Shown: in pieces, positions 2,857-23,638 of the stretch
Position numbering within the stretch: the first letter of the stretch is position 1
How the letters are laid out: the number at the start of each line of letters is the position of its first letter
The notes under the pieces: generated by a model
Seen by the model: only the letters and a program-made list of their open reading frames with translations
The model's database searches: none
Told to the model about the DNA's origin: nothing
Program-made: the position numbers and the translations under genes
From: a virus
Direction: 5' to 3' (one strand)
DNA: 25,541 bases
Virus record (IMG/VR): IMGVR_UViG_3300042301_003038
Coordinates: 1-25,541 of that record

Positions 2857-3696
2857 TTAGAATGGTAAATCACCATCTGGTTCTGCTTCTGCCTGTGGGT
2901 CAACATATGAACCACCGATAGTACCTTCGTCAGATGAACTATCACCATAAACGTATTTACCTAAATCAGATGACCATCTTGGAGTTTCTCCACGAGCAAT
3001 TGCTTCCAAATACTCAACAGGTTTCTTAGAGTAAACATCCATCCAAGTAAGTGGGTCTTCAGTCCAAGCCTTAGCAGTCTCAGCGTCTGTGTGAACAGGT
3101 GTTGGGTCATCATGCATAACAGTCTGAATAACTGTGTAAGTAGCACCTTTTGGTGTCTTTGCCTTTGTCAATTCTATGATAAGGTCACGACCATTAACAG
3201 GGTCAGTGATATCACCTTTAGCTTTCCAAATCGGAATGATTTTATCAAGAATACCTTCGTTCTTGTAGTTGTGTTTAAAACGCCAGAACTTAACTCCGTC
3301 CGCTTCGTTATCACGGTCAACCACTTTAACGATATAGAATTTACGTGGCTTATACGCCTTTGCAAGTTCTTTATCAGACTCTTTACCTGTTGACATTAAT
3401 TCATCATGAATTTCAGTCAAAGGTGAACGCTCGTTATCGTTCTTTCCTGGGTCATAGATTTTATTCCATTTACCCTCAACTTGTACTTCGTGGTACCATA
3501 CTTCTTTGAAGGGTGATGACCCATCAGGTGTAGGTAGAATACGAAGACGTTTCTGTCCTGAGTTCTCATTTTGCATCAAGATTGCTGCAAAATATTTTTT
3601 CATTCTGTCTTCTTGAGACATTTTGTTTGCAGAGTTACCTCCACTTTTCGCTTTTTCATACTGTGCGAGTACAGCATCTAGGGAATTTGTCGCCAT
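2857..3696 (-). CDS. Single-stranded DNA-binding protein, gp32-like
   Basis: This 279-residue protein aligns by eye with the T4 gp32 core. KRLRILPTPDGSSPF (about residues 49-63) matches the first OB-fold strands, and FYIVKVVDRDNEADGVKFWR followed by NEGILDKIIPI matches the gp32 segment ending in the WDKI helix. It coats single-stranded DNA at the fork and works with UvsX, RNase H and helicase, which are its neighbours. There are no cysteines anywhere, so the zinc site of T4 gp32 (three Cys and one His) is absent; the position of its CPVC knuckle is occupied by roughly SPLT. After a Ser/Asp/Glu-rich linker the protein ends in DGDLPF, resembling the acidic D-x-D-[IL]-P-F tip of bacterial SSB rather than the T4 gp32 tail. 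A good Bacteroidota-type promoter lies in the 69-nt leader and a strong hairpin follows the stop, consistent with high expression. Confidence 0.82.
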   Translation of the reverse strand: MATNSLDAVLAQYEKAKSGGNSANKMSQEDRMKKYFAAILMQNENSGQKRLRILPTPDGSSPFKEVWYHEVQVEGKWNKIYDPGKNDNERSPLTEIHDELMSTGKESDKELAKAYKPRKFYIVKVVDRDNEADGVKFWRFKHNYKNEGILDKIIPIWKAKGDITDPVNGRDLIIELTKAKTPKGATYTVIQTVMHDDPTPVHTDAETAKAWTEDPLTWMDVYSKKPVEYLEAIARGETPRWSSDLGKYVYGDSSSDEGTIGGSYVDPQAEAEPDGDLPF

Positions 3697-15931: not shown

Positions 15932-17944
15932 TTATACAGTTAGACCATAATCAGAACCAACTACTCCAATTTTATCTCTTAATGTTCTTAAAGTATCGTC
16001 ATTATTAAATGCCGATAGTATTGCGTTTTTAACTTGTAAATCATTTGAATTGGCATTTACATCTAATGTAATTTTAATTTCTTTAGGTGATGATTTAGTT
16101 TCAGGTGTTGTATTATTAGCAAAAACTTGTCCTGAGGCACCTATTGATTGAGCTAACATTTCTTGATTCACAGCCATTAATAAATCACCTTTGTCTAAAG
16201 AAAATTTACTACCATTTGCATTTACAACAACATCTTTTTCTTCAGGTAGGTTAGTTCCAGTTATGAAGTTTAAGACACTTTTTATTATCGGAAATTCCAC
16301 TGCCGCAGTTGTTAATACATCACCAATTGCTTTAAGGTCTACGCCCACAGTAGTTAAAGTTTTATCTACTATTTCCATTTTACTTGCCACTGAACCTAAA
16401 GCAGCATTAAATGGGTTCTGTTCAATTTTTTCACCTAATTGTGTTGCAACATCAATATAATTTTCACCTATTCCCAAACCAATATCCGTAATAAGTTTTT
16501 TTATTGCCTCATCTGTCATTTGCAACTCACCTTTATTTAATTTAGTTAAAGTTTCATAAGTTGTTGTACCAAATTCTCTTTTATTTGATTTATCTAATGA
16601 AAATTTTGAAAAACCAACCTCATACGCCTTTATTTGTGCTTCAACCGCGGATTTCAAATAATCTTGACCTTCTTTGGTTATTGCATACTGAGTTTGTATT
16701 GTCGCATTTAAGGAAGCGTTTTGATTAACTAATGTTTCAGTATAGCTTAACTGTTGTTTAGCAACATCAACTAATTGTTTTTGTGGGTCGTCAAGATTTT
16801 GTTGTTTTTTAAGTTCATTTAAATAATCATATTGTCCATCTTTAAGCTCACTCAATCCTTTTTCCACTGTTTTACCAGATTCTGGGTCGGTAAATTTAAC
16901 AGTATATTCACCTTTAGCTTTATTAAATTCCGCAAGATTTGCAACCAACATTTTATCTTCTTCAGTTGCGTTAGGCATTAAACCTGAAAAGTCAATTTCA
17001 CTCATTTTCTTTTCAATTTTTGCAGACTCTAATGCCATTTTTTCAAATTCAGCTCTGTCAATACCTAAAGCAGTTGCGACTTCACCAAGTTGTCTTCTTG
17101 CTTCAGGCATAATTTGAAACTTACCTGTTTTTTCATCAAATTTTGTAAAGGTTTTGGATAATTCGGATAATTGGTTTTGTAACTCAGGTACATTATTTTG
17201 AGCTAAATCCATTAATTTTAATGGGTCAAGCAACGCACTTGAAGTTGCACCTAACCTTTGTAAAGTAGATGCAACGTCTATTGCAGACTCAGGTGAAAAT
17301 AATTTGTCAGCAACCGCCATGGTTTGTGAAATATCAACTCTCATTGCTGCCGCTTTTGCCGCCATTTTAGCCATACCTTCAACACCAGTACCAAACCCGT
17401 ACCTATTCATTTTGTCTAAATTATTAACAACCATTGCCGAAACTACTTGAGCATTGACACCCATACTATTTGCAGTATTGTAAACTGTTCTCATTTCTTC
17501 TTCAATATGGGTTGTCTCCATACCAGCGTTTCTAAAAGAAGTTTCTAATGTTTTTGCTGCAACTCCTGTAACTTGCGATACCGCAAATAACTTTTCAACA
17601 TTTTCAGTACTTAAAACAATCGTTCTATTTGTTGCTTCAATGTATTCTTTTTGTAATCTATTGATGTCTTCTTGTTTACCACCCATTGCAGTTACTTCTG
17701 TAACTGCTCTACCTAGTTCTTGTTTTAAAAGCTGTGAATATTCCCTAGTAACACCCATACTTTTAACCAATGAACCCATATTTTGGTCCATTTTAGTTAG
17801 ATATTCCGCAGAATTTTTAAAAGCAAATGCTTGAGATTTAGTTACTTCTAAAAAATCATTAGCAAGCTGGGTCAATCTAACATAACCAATTTGTTGACCT
17901 TGTAAATTATTAGGGTCTGTATTTCCGTCATTTGGATTGAACAT
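15932..17944 (-). CDS. Tail tape measure protein
   Basis: This 670-residue protein is largely helical, Ala/Lys/Glu/Gln-rich, and has the look of a phage tape measure: heptad-like stretches in the first 130 residues (for example QLLKQELGRAVTEVTAMG), then repeated amphipathic helices (AMVVNNLDKMNRYGFGTG, MAKMAAKAAAMRVDISQ), and a short hydrophobic segment near residues 565-575 (FPIIKSVLNFITG). Position supports the call strongly: it directly follows the tail tube and the chaperone with its frameshift-like extension, the conserved order in long-tailed phages. The tape measure sets tail length and is ejected ahead of DNA. With the usual relation of about 1.5 angstrom per residue the tail would be near 100 nm, similar to T4, whose gp29 has 590 residues. 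A TATTTAT box lies 14 nt before the start. No enzymatic domain is visible. Confidence 0.82.
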   Translation of the reverse strand: MFNPNDGNTDPNNLQGQQIGYVRLTQLANDFLEVTKSQAFAFKNSAEYLTKMDQNMGSLVKSMGVTREYSQLLKQELGRAVTEVTAMGGKQEDINRLQKEYIEATNRTIVLSTENVEKLFAVSQVTGVAAKTLETSFRNAGMETTHIEEEMRTVYNTANSMGVNAQVVSAMVVNNLDKMNRYGFGTGVEGMAKMAAKAAAMRVDISQTMAVADKLFSPESAIDVASTLQRLGATSSALLDPLKLMDLAQNNVPELQNQLSELSKTFTKFDEKTGKFQIMPEARRQLGEVATALGIDRAEFEKMALESAKIEKKMSEIDFSGLMPNATEEDKMLVANLAEFNKAKGEYTVKFTDPESGKTVEKGLSELKDGQYDYLNELKKQQNLDDPQKQLVDVAKQQLSYTETLVNQNASLNATIQTQYAITKEGQDYLKSAVEAQIKAYEVGFSKFSLDKSNKREFGTTTYETLTKLNKGELQMTDEAIKKLITDIGLGIGENYIDVATQLGEKIEQNPFNAALGSVASKMEIVDKTLTTVGVDLKAIGDVLTTAAVEFPIIKSVLNFITGTNLPEEKDVVVNANGSKFSLDKGDLLMAVNQEMLAQSIGASGQVFANNTTPETKSSPKEIKITLDVNANSNDLQVKNAILSAFNNDDTLRTLRDKIGVVGSDYGLTV

Positions 17945-17958
17945 AAAATGTTTTATTA

Positions 17959-17965
17959 ATAAATA
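17959..17965 (-). promoter_or_regulatory. TATTTAT box before the tape measure gene
   Basis: The minus strand reads TATTTATTAATAAAA, identical over 15 nt to the element before the sheath gene. It ends 14 nt before the ATG at 17944 and begins just past the stop of the chaperone extension. Confidence 0.5.
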
Positions 17966-17967
17966 AC

Positions 17968-18162
17968 TTAACTTTGATTTTTATTACTATTTAAATCAAT
18001 CAACTTGTTAATTAAAAACTTTCTTTGGAAAGTAGGCATTTTTAAAAAGTCCGAATACGACATTGTTAATTGTCGTGACAGATAAATGTATTCGTCTAAA
18101 AGATATTCTAAATAATCAGAAGAAAGGTCGAAAAAACTCTGCCCCAAAGGTAATACGTGCAA
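17968..18162 (-). CDS. C-terminal extension of the tail chaperone, probably made by frameshifting (gp51-like)
   Basis: This reading frame overlaps the 3' end of the gp26-like chaperone gene in the +1 frame and has no ATG near its beginning; only a TTG at 18162 and a CTG further upstream are available, and the first ATG (18063) would leave just 31 residues. It is therefore best read as an extension fused to the upstream protein. Shifting at TTTTTTC (18130-18136) gives 246 chaperone residues plus 53 more, a 299-residue product. The extension contains DYLEYLLDEYIYLSRQLTMS and then SDFLKMPTFQRKFLINKLI, a pattern like the helical C-terminal half of tail assembly chaperones (a Y..S..[DE].L.MP..ER segment). 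The order tube, chaperone, overlapping extension, tape measure mirrors the lambda G/GT arrangement. An independent small gene starting at TTG remains possible. Confidence 0.65.
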   Translation of the reverse strand: MHVLPLGQSFFDLSSDYLEYLLDEYIYLSRQLTMSYSDFLKMPTFQRKFLINKLIDLNSNKNQS

Positions 18163-18868
18163 GTACCTTTTTTCCAGATGGGGCTATAATTTCTTGTGTT
18201 AAATCTAATCCTGGTGAATTTTCTTGTAAAAATCTTGTAATGTACTTTGAATCCATAATTGGCATCCTTTCTATAAACTTAACAATTTCCCCCTTATCGG
18301 TATTCCCGTCTATTGATACTATTTGTTTTTGTAATCTCCAAGTTACAACTGGAACAGTCATGTTTTTTGGATAAGATAATTCTCTTTCGTTTAATTCTTT
18401 AATTTCACCAAAATTAAGAATTTTTAATTTTACATTTACGTTAGATTTTGGAAGAATTGTTTCAAAATAACCATTTTCATCAGGGTTAACTAATGGTTTA
18501 ATAAAGTTAATTTCATCTAACACAATAGAAACTTCAAAAGGTTTTTGTGTTTCAGGGTCAATTAAATTTAATTTATACTCAGGTGTAAATGATGTATTTC
18601 TTAAAAACAATAAAATTGCTTGGATGTCGCCATCTAACATTTCTTCAATCTTCAAATCAGGTTCATAAACTTTATTTCTGATTAAATTATAAATTATTTG
18701 GTCTCCACCAACGTTACTAGCACTTGCTAAAATATTTTCATCAGCAGCAGTTAAAAAACCAACTTTAACCGACTTTTTTTTATTTTTATAAAATTTTCCC
18801 TGACTCGGTAATTGAATTACGTCGTGAGGTAAGTTGAAATTCATTTGATTTACACTATTATCTTCCAT
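18116..18868 (-). CDS. Tail assembly chaperone / baseplate hub assembly protein, gp26-like
   Basis: This 250-residue protein fits the T4 base plate protein family (gp26 type). Its N-terminal third reads FNLPHDVIQLPSQGKFY, then VKVGFLTAADENILAS, then DGDIQAILLFLRNTSFTPEY, which match the family's 'LPS-x-G-x-x-Y', 'EE-x-x-LA' and 'lR' motifs. The family is thought to act as a chaperone for the tape measure or hub during tail assembly. The tail tube gene lies upstream, the tape measure downstream. Near the stop the sequence GAGTTTTTTCGA allows a shift into the +1 frame (see the neighbouring extension). An intrinsic terminator precedes the gene, so it must have its own promoter; its leader contains TATTTACATAAAG, a one-base variant of the TATTTAT box. 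Confidence 0.78.
   Translation of the reverse strand: MEDNSVNQMNFNLPHDVIQLPSQGKFYKNKKKSVKVGFLTAADENILASASNVGGDQIIYNLIRNKVYEPDLKIEEMLDGDIQAILLFLRNTSFTPEYKLNLIDPETQKPFEVSIVLDEINFIKPLVNPDENGYFETILPKSNVNVKLKILNFGEIKELNERELSYPKNMTVPVVTWRLQKQIVSIDGNTDKGEIVKFIERMPIMDSKYITRFLQENSPGLDLTQEIIAPSGKKVLARITFGAEFFRPFF
18130..18136 (-). promoter_or_regulatory. Candidate slippery heptamer for programmed frameshift
   Basis: The coding strand reads GAG TTT TTT CGA in the chaperone frame, twelve bases before its stop. A +1 slip lets tRNA-Phe move from TTT to TTC and continue with GAC in the extension frame; a -2 slip also enters that frame. A second possible +1 site is TTT GGG GCA, about 15 nt upstream. Confidence 0.55.
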
Positions 18869-18958: not shown

Positions 18959-19447
18959 TTAGTAAAGTAATACACAATAGTCGGGACGAAGAGTTAAAGT
19001 GATATCAGCCAATCCATCTTCAGAATATGATACACTACCAAAATCAACGTCAGTTAAAAAACATTGTATTAATGACCACTTTTCAATAACAACACCTGTT
19101 GGGTCTAACATTTCAAGTTCTACGTCTTTTTTGTAACCCGCGGCATATCCCATACGACCTGTAACTTCTTCAGCATGTAATCTTACCCACTCCATCATAG
19201 CCTGAGCTGCTGATGGCCCGATTGGGTCAAGAAGTTTAACCTGAATAGTGTTCCACTCATACATACCCGCAACATATCTTTTGGTATTCAAGAATGGAAT
19301 ATCATTTGATTTAATAGTAATTTTAGGTCGAGCCGCAGATTGAACAAACCACTCGTTTATTCCCAACGAATCAGGAAATCTCAAAATGAACCTGTTTTTC
19401 TTTTTGGGTTCATATGGAAAGGGCATTTTGGTTAACAAATCAGCCAT
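18959..19447 (-). CDS. Tail tube protein, gp19-like
   Basis: This 162-residue protein matches the contractile-tail tube family, whose T4 member gp19 has 163 residues. Characteristic segments are the N-terminal FPYEPKKKNRFILRFPD, then FVQSAARPKITIKSNDI, then GMYEWNTIQVKLLDPIGPSA, and the C-terminal GLADITLTLRPDYCVLLY. Hexameric rings of this protein stack inside the sheath to form the DNA conduit. The gene carries its own terminator, is preceded by a 116-nt gap with two TATTTAT boxes, and has comparatively high GC and conservative codons, consistent with heavy expression. The tube is normally beside the sheath gene, but here a HAD-family gene separates them. Confidence 0.92.
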   Translation of the reverse strand: MADLLTKMPFPYEPKKKNRFILRFPDSLGINEWFVQSAARPKITIKSNDIPFLNTKRYVAGMYEWNTIQVKLLDPIGPSAAQAMMEWVRLHAEEVTGRMGYAAGYKKDVELEMLDPTGVVIEKWSLIQCFLTDVDFGSVSYSEDGLADITLTLRPDYCVLLY

Positions 19448-20446: not shown

Positions 20447-23400
20447 TTAAATATTTTCAAACGACGCTCCTGTTGGAGTGATTAAGAATTCAATATCTAT
20501 GAATTCAAGAGCTTTAGTTGGTTTGATATAAATCTTACCTACTAATTGGTTAGCATCTAAGTCTTCAGGTGTGTTTTGAACAGTAACTCTGAAGTCATAC
20601 AAACCTCTGTCTCTACGAATTGCATCTAAGATTGGGTTAACAGAATCTAAGAACTGTTGTCTTACCAAGTTATCGTTTTGTTCAAACAATAATCTTACAG
20701 CTACTGCTGAAATCAACTTACGAGCTTGTAACAACAATCTTCTTACGTTTATTCTGTCAAGAGCTGACTCTCTAATTTGAAGAGTTTTGTTACCCCAAAT
20801 TACAGTTCCAACGTCGTTAAAAGTTGCGATTGGGTTAACTCTTCCCTTGTAAAGAGTGTCTCTATCTTCTTGAGTTAATCTCTTTCTTGCTCTAATAGCA
20901 TTTACAATACCTCTTGTGTAACCCGCAGTTGCGAACCATGGGAAAGCTATATTGTCAGTTAACGCTAAGTTTCTTGTAACTTCAGCAGTTGCTGGTATAT
21001 AGATTTGTGTATTGTTTACAGTATCACGAGTAAGAACCCATGGATAGTAAGTAGCAGTGTAGTTAGAGTCAATTCCTGTATTTTCTAAGTTGTCAACCGC
21101 TTCTTGTGGGTAAATTAAGTTATCCATTGAAGTTGATGGTTGGAACAAGTTAAAGTCAGGAGTTGTACAAATGTAGATTGAGTCCGCTCTATCGTTTTCA
21201 ACAATGTCAATTGTTGCTGAAACTAAATCACTATTGTTAACATAATCAACACCAGGAGTTACAAGAACATTGATGTTTGTTATTTCAGGATTTGCAAACG
21301 ACTGTACACCTAACAAGTATGCGTAATAGTCAGTATTTGCGTAATCAACCGTGTTATCACCAACTGTGATTTGTTTAAACGCTCCCCATCCTGTAGCATC
21401 TGTGTACGGTGCACAAGATAGTGCTCCTTGTTTGTATCCTGTGTTTCCTAAACGGAATCTGTCAGCATTTGTTCTATATTCTCTGTATATATCCCATCCG
21501 TCAAATCCTGCTTGAACAAGGAATGTAAACTTACGAGAGTATAAGAAGTAATATGGACTTGTTTGTGACGTAGGTTCTGAATTAAACGACCCAGCTCCAA
21601 CTTCAAATGCCGTTTGACCACTGTTTTGGTAAGCATTTGCTATAACAATAGAAGTTGCTCCTGAATCCATGTGGAAACCTTTTGTAACATTTGGCCAATA
21701 TACATGAGAAGGTGGTGTACAAGTTGACGAATTCGGATTTGGCATCCCTTTGTATTGGAAGAAATCAGGGTCATAACCTGGTGCATCCGATGAAAATGCT
21801 ACCGCTGAAGAAATACCTAAATAAGTTCTTCTTATGTTATCACCAGCACTTGGTGTACTGTTAGAACCATTAGATGAATTTCCAAACGGTGGGTTATAAA
21901 TAACTTCACCAGGATAATCATATTTTGTCTTGAAGATTTGGAATGGTGATTTAGCACCTGAGTATGTTCTTGTAACAAAACCTTCAAATCCACAAGGAAG
22001 AGCATCCACTGGAGCTTCCTGATTTACCTCAACAAAAATGTATTTTGACTGTACTGCGTATTCACCATCAGATGAACCAACTTTTTTAGCTACGTAACTA
22101 TTTTCAGCAGGGTCCATACTACAGTTTGTAAACTTTTCTAAAACAACAGGATTTGAATCTGTGTCAAAGAAATCACGTACAATAAGGTCAAATGTACCAT
22201 TGTTAAAGGATATATTCGCAATAGATACTTTAATTTCAGTATTAGCGTCATTACCATCAGCAATTGTATAAACTTTAAACAATCTATAAACTAAATTACC
22301 ACGTAATTCTGAAACAACCCATGGAGATTCAGGTGTTTGGTATTGTTCAAGGTAATAAGCTATAGATGATGTATCATTATTTCTAGCTTCAGGTAAAGAA
22401 ATTAAACTACAATTTAAACCACGAATATAACCTTTGTTATAACCGTAATTTAATAATGTTGGATAACGCTCTTCAACAAACAATGGAACTTCAGTTCTAT
22501 CTTTAGCAAAGTTTTCAACACCAAATACTTTAGCAATATAGTTAGCGTTACCTGCATTAAACGAAGTTTCAAATTGGAATGCTGAATTTTCATAAGTTAA
22601 ACCTGAAATTAAAAATGTACTAAATGGATTTTTAGTAACTCCTGAATAAGAACCTGTACAAATCATTTGAACATCCGAAGTACCTGTTACTTGATAATCA
22701 GGCCCGTCTTGTGTAGTTGAATAGTTTGTAATACCTCTTGAACGTAAAGTTGCAACAACCAAATCATTATAACCTGAATAAGTTAAACCTGAGAAGTTAT
22801 AAATATTACCTGTTATAGAACCACTATAAGAACCTGATGCACCAGTTATTGTACTAATTCTACTAAAGAATGAATAACCATCGTAATTTTCACCCGTTGT
22901 CGGAGGTGTGAATGTCGCATAATACCATACATCATTAACTTCAGAACAATAATCAATACTTGACGCACTTATTGCATTAACTCCAAATACGTTTGTAGAT
23001 GCCGAATATCCTGCCGCAATGTTTGCTGTAACTTGAGCTCCAGAAACCGCTCCAAAATAATAGATAGAAGATGCTGAAGTAGCATTAGAACTAATTACAC
23101 CTGAAATTTGACTTTGGAGTTGTGCGTAAATTGTTGATGAACCTCCACTATATGTTGTATAAGGAGTTGTTGCATTTGCTATACCGGCAGGTAAACCTGT
23201 AATTGTTACTGTTGCAGTTGAGGCAGTTGTACCAACAAATGTTGCTGTAAATGTTGTTGGTGTACCTGTAAGAGCAACCGTATTACAATCAACATTTGCG
23301 ACAGTTGTAATAGACCAAGATGGACCTGCGTCATAACCTGATAATCCTAAAATTCTTGTTACAAACAATTGGTTAGATTGTTGAAGGTATGATTTAGCGA

Positions 23401-23638
23401 TATAAGCCGCTTCATACTTTGGGATTTGTGTGTTCACAAATTTTTCAGGAGTAGTACCGCCGAAATAGGTTTCAAACTCTCCATAACTTGTGATGAAGAT
23501 TGGTTCAAAAGCCGGACCTTTTAAGGTTTCTCCAGCTATACCCAACGTGGTAATCCCAACACTTTGTGAAACAAAAGATAAATCTCTTTCTGATGTATAT
23601 ACACCAGGTGAGACGAAAACTTTGTTTGATGTTGCCAT
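20447..23638 (-). CDS. Tail sheath protein, gp18-like, enlarged
   Basis: This 1063-residue protein has both conserved ends of contractile sheath proteins. The N-terminus reads VFVSPGVYTSERDLSF, with GIAGETLKGPAFEPIFIT and FVTRILGLSGYDAG up to about residue 104. The C-terminal 250 residues include FPWFATAGYTRGIVNAI, RVNPIATFNDVGTVIWGN and RINVRRLLLQARKLISA, the interlocking sheath domain. T4 gp18 has 659 residues, so about 400 are extra. Part of the surplus lies at residues about 107-290, a Ser/Thr/Gly-rich, beta-like stretch (STATVTITGLPAG, SASSIYYFGAVSG) that probably forms outward-facing domains. The sheath contracts to drive the tube through the host envelope. It has its own terminator and a TATTTAT box 36 nt upstream of the ATG. 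Confidence 0.93.
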   Translation of the reverse strand: MATSNKVFVSPGVYTSERDLSFVSQSVGITTLGIAGETLKGPAFEPIFITSYGEFETYFGGTTPEKFVNTQIPKYEAAYIAKSYLQQSNQLFVTRILGLSGYDAGPSWSITTVANVDCNTVALTGTPTTFTATFVGTTASTATVTITGLPAGIANATTPYTTYSGGSSTIYAQLQSQISGVISSNATSASSIYYFGAVSGAQVTANIAAGYSASTNVFGVNAISASSIDYCSEVNDVWYYATFTPPTTGENYDGYSFFSRISTITGASGSYSGSITGNIYNFSGLTYSGYNDLVVATLRSRGITNYSTTQDGPDYQVTGTSDVQMICTGSYSGVTKNPFSTFLISGLTYENSAFQFETSFNAGNANYIAKVFGVENFAKDRTEVPLFVEERYPTLLNYGYNKGYIRGLNCSLISLPEARNNDTSSIAYYLEQYQTPESPWVVSELRGNLVYRLFKVYTIADGNDANTEIKVSIANISFNNGTFDLIVRDFFDTDSNPVVLEKFTNCSMDPAENSYVAKKVGSSDGEYAVQSKYIFVEVNQEAPVDALPCGFEGFVTRTYSGAKSPFQIFKTKYDYPGEVIYNPPFGNSSNGSNSTPSAGDNIRRTYLGISSAVAFSSDAPGYDPDFFQYKGMPNPNSSTCTPPSHVYWPNVTKGFHMDSGATSIVIANAYQNSGQTAFEVGAGSFNSEPTSQTSPYYFLYSRKFTFLVQAGFDGWDIYREYRTNADRFRLGNTGYKQGALSCAPYTDATGWGAFKQITVGDNTVDYANTDYYAYLLGVQSFANPEITNINVLVTPGVDYVNNSDLVSATIDIVENDRADSIYICTTPDFNLFQPSTSMDNLIYPQEAVDNLENTGIDSNYTATYYPWVLTRDTVNNTQIYIPATAEVTRNLALTDNIAFPWFATAGYTRGIVNAIRARKRLTQEDRDTLYKGRVNPIATFNDVGTVIWGNKTLQIRESALDRINVRRLLLQARKLISAVAVRLLFEQNDNLVRQQFLDSVNPILDAIRRDRGLYDFRVTVQNTPEDLDANQLVGKIYIKPTKALEFIDIEFLITPTGASFENI

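Follow-up and report, generated by a model that had tools for sequence, protein, structure and literature searches.

A programmed +1 ribosomal frameshift near the end of a gp26-like gene very likely (probability about 0.92) gives this virus a second, longer tail assembly chaperone; the conclusion is drawn from sequence comparison, without peptide or reporter evidence. The window, that is, the whole stretch of DNA analysed, is a 25.5-kb viral fragment (25,541 nucleotides) with genes on the minus strand for a tail sheath, an unnamed product, the tail tube, the chaperone and a presumed tape measure protein (Table 1). The product of the chaperone gene (18868..18116) matches PF12322 (T4_baseplate; E 8e-8, 32.6 bits against a curated cut-off of 24.5) and phrog_150 (baseplate hub; E 1e-13), and the gene sits between the tail tube gene and the presumed tape measure gene. 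Profile searches with the latter (15932..17944) gave no convincing family match, and it is named by its position, as annotated after the chaperone in Flavobacterium phage immuto and Listeria phage LIS04. The tail sheath protein (20447-23638) is very long, at 1063 aa, and the best match of the sheath profile begins only at about residue 733.

Table 1. Coordinates of the chaperone locus and its recoding elements in the window.
Feature	Position	Strand	Remarks
Tail tube protein	18959..19447	-	phrog_4542 (tail tube), E 2e-26
gp26-like tail assembly chaperone, short form	18116..18868	-	250 aa, 0-frame; PF12322, phrog_150
Hairpin, whole	18184-18141	-	Precedes the slip site
Outer stem, 5' arm GCCCCA	18179..18184	-	Pairs with 18141-18146
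Inner stem, 5' arm AAGGT	18165..18169	-	Pairs with 18147-18151
Inner stem, 3' arm ACCTT	18147..18151	-	From the RNAalifold fold and pairing counts
Outer stem, 3' arm TGGGGC	18141..18146	-	Ends 4 nt before the T-run and 7 nt before the slip codon
Slip site TTT_TTT_C	18130..18136	-	122/123 distinct junctions have YTT and then T/C
Proposed P-site TTT	18133-18131	-	+1 re-pairing onto TTC, 18132-18130
A-site codon CGA (0-frame Arg)	18128..18130	-	CGN in every window-clade relative
0-frame stop TGA	18116..18118	-	Four sense codons past the slip codon; fixed distance in the window clade
+1-frame C-terminal extension	17968..18129	-	53 codons (DLSSDYLEYLL..MPTFQRKFLINKLI..) and stop TAA (17970-17968); dN/dS 0.147, this frame only
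Presumed tape measure protein	15932..17944	-	670 aa; named by position only

The 0-frame closes with the codons GCA GAG TTT TTT CGA CCT TTC TTC TGA (protein end EFFRPFF). An original prediction, made without database searches, had placed a TTTTTTC run 12 bases before the end of the gp26-like gene, followed by 53 open codons in the +1 frame with no usable ATG and a 299-residue fusion formed by a +1 slip. Each of these claims held. The last base of the run lies at 18130 and the stop begins at 18118; the +1 frame is open over the stated length and is conserved well beyond chance; the first ATG in that frame lies 55 nt past the 0-frame stop, within the conserved core of the extension; and the 0-frame joined to the extension by a +1 slip gives a fusion of 299 aa. 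The predicted gene order of tube, chaperone, extension and tape measure held as well, the tape measure by position only. A helical C-terminal segment, also claimed, finds its counterpart in the AlphaFold model of the extension, in which three helices are predicted (pLDDT 91); the extension and a gp51 were each folded separately as unchanged sequences. Foldseek with the extension model returned no significant match, and three low-ranking matches were named tail assembly chaperone. The -1 frame that follows an X_XXY_YYZ signal of the canonical G-T type is not where the extension of the window lies; it lies in +1. Between the extension stop and the tape measure start (17945-17967) there is a TTATTTAT-like motif, which recurs at the corresponding position in most loci of the window clade and may be a late promoter or a signal of the untranslated region. 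The extension of one relative (L086:2857-3081) shows a weak Pfam match to DUF6760 (E 0.003).

The extension is under strong purifying selection as a protein, and in the +1 frame only. Beyond the 0-frame stop its dN/dS is 0.114 in that frame, compared with 1.49 and 1.71 in the other frames, as computed from 44 non-overlapping pairs. Taken clade by clade, the +1-frame values are 0.147 (window clade) and 0.099 (sister clade), with the other two frames above 1.

Conservation of both frames is shown by a comparison of almost 200 related virus sequences. A first round comprised 80 IMG/VR relatives, 55-100% identical, that reduce to 43 distinct junctions. All 80 read TTY GGG GYN GAR TTY TTT CGN, followed by CCTTTCTTC (GTTTTCTTC in L078) and a stop. 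The 0-frame stop, whether TGA, TAA or TAG, stands at one fixed place in all 43 distinct window-clade junctions, and the +1 frame remains open for 136-172 nt past it. A wider set of 192 loci was scanned with a profile of the extension, which was detectable in 184; in 181 of these it occupies the +1 frame. The same overlap layout was found in four distant isolate or large-phage genomes, and the +1 layout is also present in the isolates SP-15, GXN1, Mel-JY01, RM378 and immuto. Scans for relatives in bacterial genomes found none. The extension is an ATG-started separate gene in only three loci, L171, L182 and L187, where it lies in another frame; the first two are without the slip motif and L187 retains CTT_TGG. 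This state is probably derived in L182 and L187, since both nest within the +1 clade.

The slip codon is conserved across the family. A second large clade, formed by Microcystis phage Mel-JY01, Flavobacterium phage immuto and many aquatic contigs, carries TTT TTT TGG CCT (FFWP in the 0-frame, FFGL in the +1 frame), with the variants TTC TTT TGG, CTT TTT TGG, TTT CTT TGG and TTT TTT TAC. Over all 123 distinct junctions the second codon of the pair is TTT in 121, CTT in one, CTA in one and TTC in none, and in 122 the slip codon is TTT or CTT and the next base T or C. TTT is thus used in 121 of the 121 cases in which the second codon encodes Phe, against a background share of TTC among the Phe codons of the same genes of 13% in the window clade and 25% in the others. 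Clustering at 75% identity left 49 clusters, all with TTT, for which the chance at background rates is about 1e-5 to 1e-3. The single exception, Listeria phage LIS04 (L168, ~3200-3230), reads TTT TTT AGT and is the only +1 relative with A after the slip codon; the first TTT may be its slip codon instead, as re-pairing at TTT_AGT would otherwise be poor. The A site holds a sense codon (CGN/TGG), with the stop several codons later. In the window clade this codon is CGC or CGG in 28 of 42 CGN sites, as opposed to 3 of 304 upstream Arg codons in the same genes, and AGA, their usual Arg codon, never occurs there. The C that opens CGN is needed for +1 re-pairing, and the third base varies because the 0-frame Arg is silent to the change and the +1 frame encodes a small linker residue there. 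The preference for CGC and CGG fits a slow A-site codon, or possibly serves the +1-frame residue (Ala, Gly).

In the proposed mechanism, a single start would serve two tail assembly chaperones. Most ribosomes would read through to the 0-frame stop and produce the 250-aa short form, and a minority would slip +1 at the point where P-site tRNA-Phe is paired with the second TTT and CGA, a slow Arg codon, occupies the A site. Re-pairing of this tRNA on TTC would let reading resume at GAC and give the 299-aa long form with its three-helix extension. By analogy with lambda gpG/gpGT, coating of the tape measure protein would fall to the short form, and the long form would probably recruit tube subunits. 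Slipping in cells and its rate are inferred, as are the roles of the chaperones; binding of the tape measure and absence from the virion would be expected of a tail assembly chaperone of this type. As originally predicted, the best-supported explanation is programmed frameshifting of a tail chaperone of the T4 type, in which tRNA-Phe would move from TTT to TTC. Two other positions for the slip were considered and rejected. A slip at the TTC_TGA stop does not agree with distant relatives, in which the stop-proximal codons differ (GAC, AAG, GAG) and TTT_(C/T) is shared. A slip downstream of CGN was suggested by the varying third base of that codon, a variation for which dual coding accounts.

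An RNA hairpin shortly before the slip site is conserved in the window clade, as shown by comparison. The alignment of this clade contains invariant GCCCC and GGGG(C/T) blocks, and RNAalifold folded 36 distinct sequences into two stems separated by a 9-nt bulge, an outer one of 6 bp (columns 13-18 with 51-56) and an inner one of 5 bp (columns 28-32 with 46-50). All six outer pairs are kept in 36/36 distinct relatives; 95% of cells are paired in the inner stem, with compensatory changes that include one between two wobble positions, and 97.7% of cells pair in the two stems together. Doubly changed cells and the covariation score lie above all 500 shuffles, and covariation also exceeds all slid controls, whose registers pair in at most 64%. 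The hairpin is the minimum-energy form of each of ten divergent members, and its single-sequence stability is only modestly above that of shuffles (z -0.8 to -3.7). L063 forms an inner stem of 8 bp, of different sequence, in a shifted register. In 36/36 distinct window-clade sequences, 4 nt separate the end of the hairpin from the T-run that follows. A Shine-Dalgarno at the GGGG was rejected, as these bases are the 3' arm of the hairpin. No hairpin was found at the sites of the Mel-JY01/immuto clade when one was looked for, and no downstream stimulatory structure was found at the slip site. As the hairpin is seen in the window clade only, +1 slipping across the family cannot depend on it. Since the 3' arm stops 7 nt short of the slip codon, within the stretch that a ribosome would cover, re-forming of the stem would press the ribosome forward. 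In the window clade the hairpin would thus probably refold behind the ribosome and favour the forward slip, but this role as a pusher is inferred, and the hairpin is regarded as a candidate stimulatory signal.

Several rival explanations for the second frame were weighed. The original prediction had left a +1 slip and a -2 slip undecided, and a -2 frameshift at TTT_TTT would indeed reach the same frame, with tRNA-Phe re-pairing on TTT in TTTTTTC and TTTTTTTGG. It is very unlikely, as 13 of the 123 distinct junctions (TTC TTT in 11, TTT CTT, TTT CTA) break -2 and keep +1 re-pairing. Such interrupted runs are seen in GAG TTC TTT CGC (L050), GAA TTC TTT CGT (phage GXN1), TTC TTT TGG (L172-L181) and AAC TTT CTA (LR756508), and they argue for +1, since a -2 slip would put tRNA-Phe on TCT or ACT and a +1 slip keeps it on TTC or TTT. 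Re-pairing in +1 (TTT to TTC or TTT, CTT to TTT) is possible in all junctions except LIS04, and comparison thereby shows that the forward direction is conserved. Slippage of the polymerase on the T-run, which would give a mixed mRNA population, draws support from the runs of T6-T7 in most members. However, runs are of only 3-4 T in several relatives (TTC TTT CGC, TTC TTT TGG, TTT CTT TGG, AAC TTT CTA) with the frame relation unchanged, and because most of the junctions that break -2 have such runs, too short for polymerase slippage, a ribosomal origin is indicated and the transcriptional one is improbable in the extreme. An assembly error that splits one in-frame gene might be suspected from the position of the junction in a homopolymer, but it is all but ruled out by about 120 distinct sequences and several isolate genomes that share the frame relation, and by the fixed place of the 0-frame stop in the window clade.

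The extension could instead be a separate protein started in the +1 frame, from a TTG upstream of the slip or by coupled re-initiation. A TTG often occurs 29-44 nt before the 0-frame stop, annotators sometimes call a small downstream gene, and the extension has its own ATG-started gene in L171, L182 and L187. Nevertheless, the positions of start codons are not conserved; L055-type sequences lack any ATG, GTG or TTG in the +1 frame until an ATG 55 nt beyond the stop, the only candidate in L078 is a TTG at +37, and the TTG at -29 is present because it is part of the TTTGGGG of the hairpin. In L171 and L182 the slip motif has been lost and the frame differs. A separate start also leaves the invariant slip codon unexplained, and we consider it very unlikely. 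The original prediction would have been refuted by homologues with a clear ATG-started second gene; these are confined to the same three loci, in another frame, and its proposed alignment of homologues found the overlap and slip motif kept in all 80 first-round relatives, so the outcome favours the frameshift. A further rival, less likely but not negligible, touches only the role of the hairpin, which may serve another purpose, such as mRNA stability, without any effect on slipping. The sites of the Mel clade, which have no hairpin, speak for it; against it stand the compensatory changes, the fixed distance to the slip site and the invariant wobble bases (C in the Ala codon GCC, 36/36 at the hairpin versus 25/322 in the background; G in the Gly codon GGG, 36/36 versus 48/543).

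The frameshift was placed in the context of the T4 superfamily, in which the original prediction had missed, besides the upstream hairpin, a -1 version in cyanophage-type phages and the solution of T4 itself. T4 gp26 and gp51 both belong to PF12322 (E 9e-64 and 4e-52), and gp51 has about 45 additional C-terminal residues. Two PF12322 genes are present in T4 and in Campylobacter phage CP220; frameshift phages with a detected PF12322 gene (near-whole relatives) carry only one, and gp51 has no gene of its own in them. In T4 (L085), genes 26 (short) and 51 (long) are paralogues, and gp51 looks like a long chaperone encoded separately by its own gene. Similarity between the +1 extensions and the C-terminus of gp51 is weak: phrog_634 is the best match of three extensions (E 0.014-0.041), and hhalign aligned the extension to the gp51 C-terminus in the expected place with E 0.003 and low probability. 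The predicted models of both show the same long-short-long order of helices. Foldseek of the gp51 model found no match in the PDB and, in a viral structure library, gp26-like proteins including that of SP-15. The gp51 model also matched BFVD entries A0A343LED6 and A0A343LED7 of Leptospira phage LE4, which have consecutive accessions and were matched, not significantly, by the extension model; they may represent another split chaperone.

A -1-frame extension at T_TTT_TTC/T was identified in P-SSM2, S-PM2, HTVC008M, phiM12, phiW-14, Atu_ph07 and PA5oct, in the last two by reading frame and not by profile match (-1 set: L228-L232 and L241-L329, Kyanoviridae-type, phiM12 and phiW-14). Of 75 distinct cyanophage-type junctions, 73 carry T_TTT_TTC at the corresponding pair of Phe codons, and in 72 a -1-frame ATG 5 nt past the stop offers an alternative start, which is absent in L320. 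In a tree of the common domain, T4 falls with the Kyanoviridae and the lineages of the window, Mel, SP-15 and RM378 lie elsewhere; support for the deep branches is moderate. On balance we lean, without much margin, towards a bolder joint reading, in which one orthologous gene makes its long form in at least three ways (+1 at TTT_(C/T), -1 at T_TTT_TTC and the paralogues of T4) and the hairpin of the window clade is a pusher of a new type.

Tail-chaperone frameshifting is textbook knowledge; most phages slip backward, and +1 sites are rare in bacteria. It has been described as conserved in long-tailed phages 'except T4' (review, Atkins 2016, PMC5009743). Short and long T4-like chaperone genes were reported by Vladimirov, Gautam and Davidson (2022, Virology 566:9; cited in PMC10885494 and PMC12846349), and poly-T -1 signals are known from T4-like/Kyanoviridae chaperones (cited in PMC12846349). 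Neither the +1 form nor the hairpin was found described in the literature searched, which excludes most subscription journals. T4-like short and long chaperones and tail frameshifting are thus already known, and the family-wide +1 version and the hairpin are apparently new. Like the window gene, lambda G/G-T (PMC5009743) lies between tube and tape measure and yields a short form and a minor, C-terminally extended long form; unlike it, lambda slips -1, and the window has PF12322 instead of the lambda family and, in its clade, an upstream hairpin. T4 shares PF12322, and its gp51 consists of a gp26-like domain and a C-terminal extension whose predicted helices follow the same order, but it uses two genes where the window has one gene and a frameshift. 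The Kyanoviridae signal acts in the orthologous gene at matching Phe-Phe codons, in the opposite direction and with the additional ATG past the stop. The +1 site of prfB (RF2) is CUU_UGA with an upstream Shine-Dalgarno; a +1 slip rule of this kind is also given in PMC10885494. There too the P-site tRNA re-pairs +1 onto UUU/UUC with an upstream element near the P site, and CTT_TGG of immuto is close to CUU_UGA. In the window, by contrast, the A site holds a sense codon rather than a stop and the hairpin replaces the Shine-Dalgarno, so that the site does not meet the criteria of a prfB-type signal (A-site stop, Shine-Dalgarno 3 nt upstream). The archaeal myovirus HSTV-2 resembles the window in a suspected or very likely +1 slip at the tail chaperone of a contractile-tailed virus (PMC5009743), but is a single case.

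In current annotations the long protein is overlooked or replaced by small, partial gene calls. T4-type phages, which have been said to lack tail-chaperone frameshifting, most likely use a forward slip here, and the family offers close to 200 naturally varied +1 sites, together with a hairpin whose role is open to direct testing. It is also a natural example of a single gene whose frameshift is forward (+1) in some lineages and backward (-1) in others.
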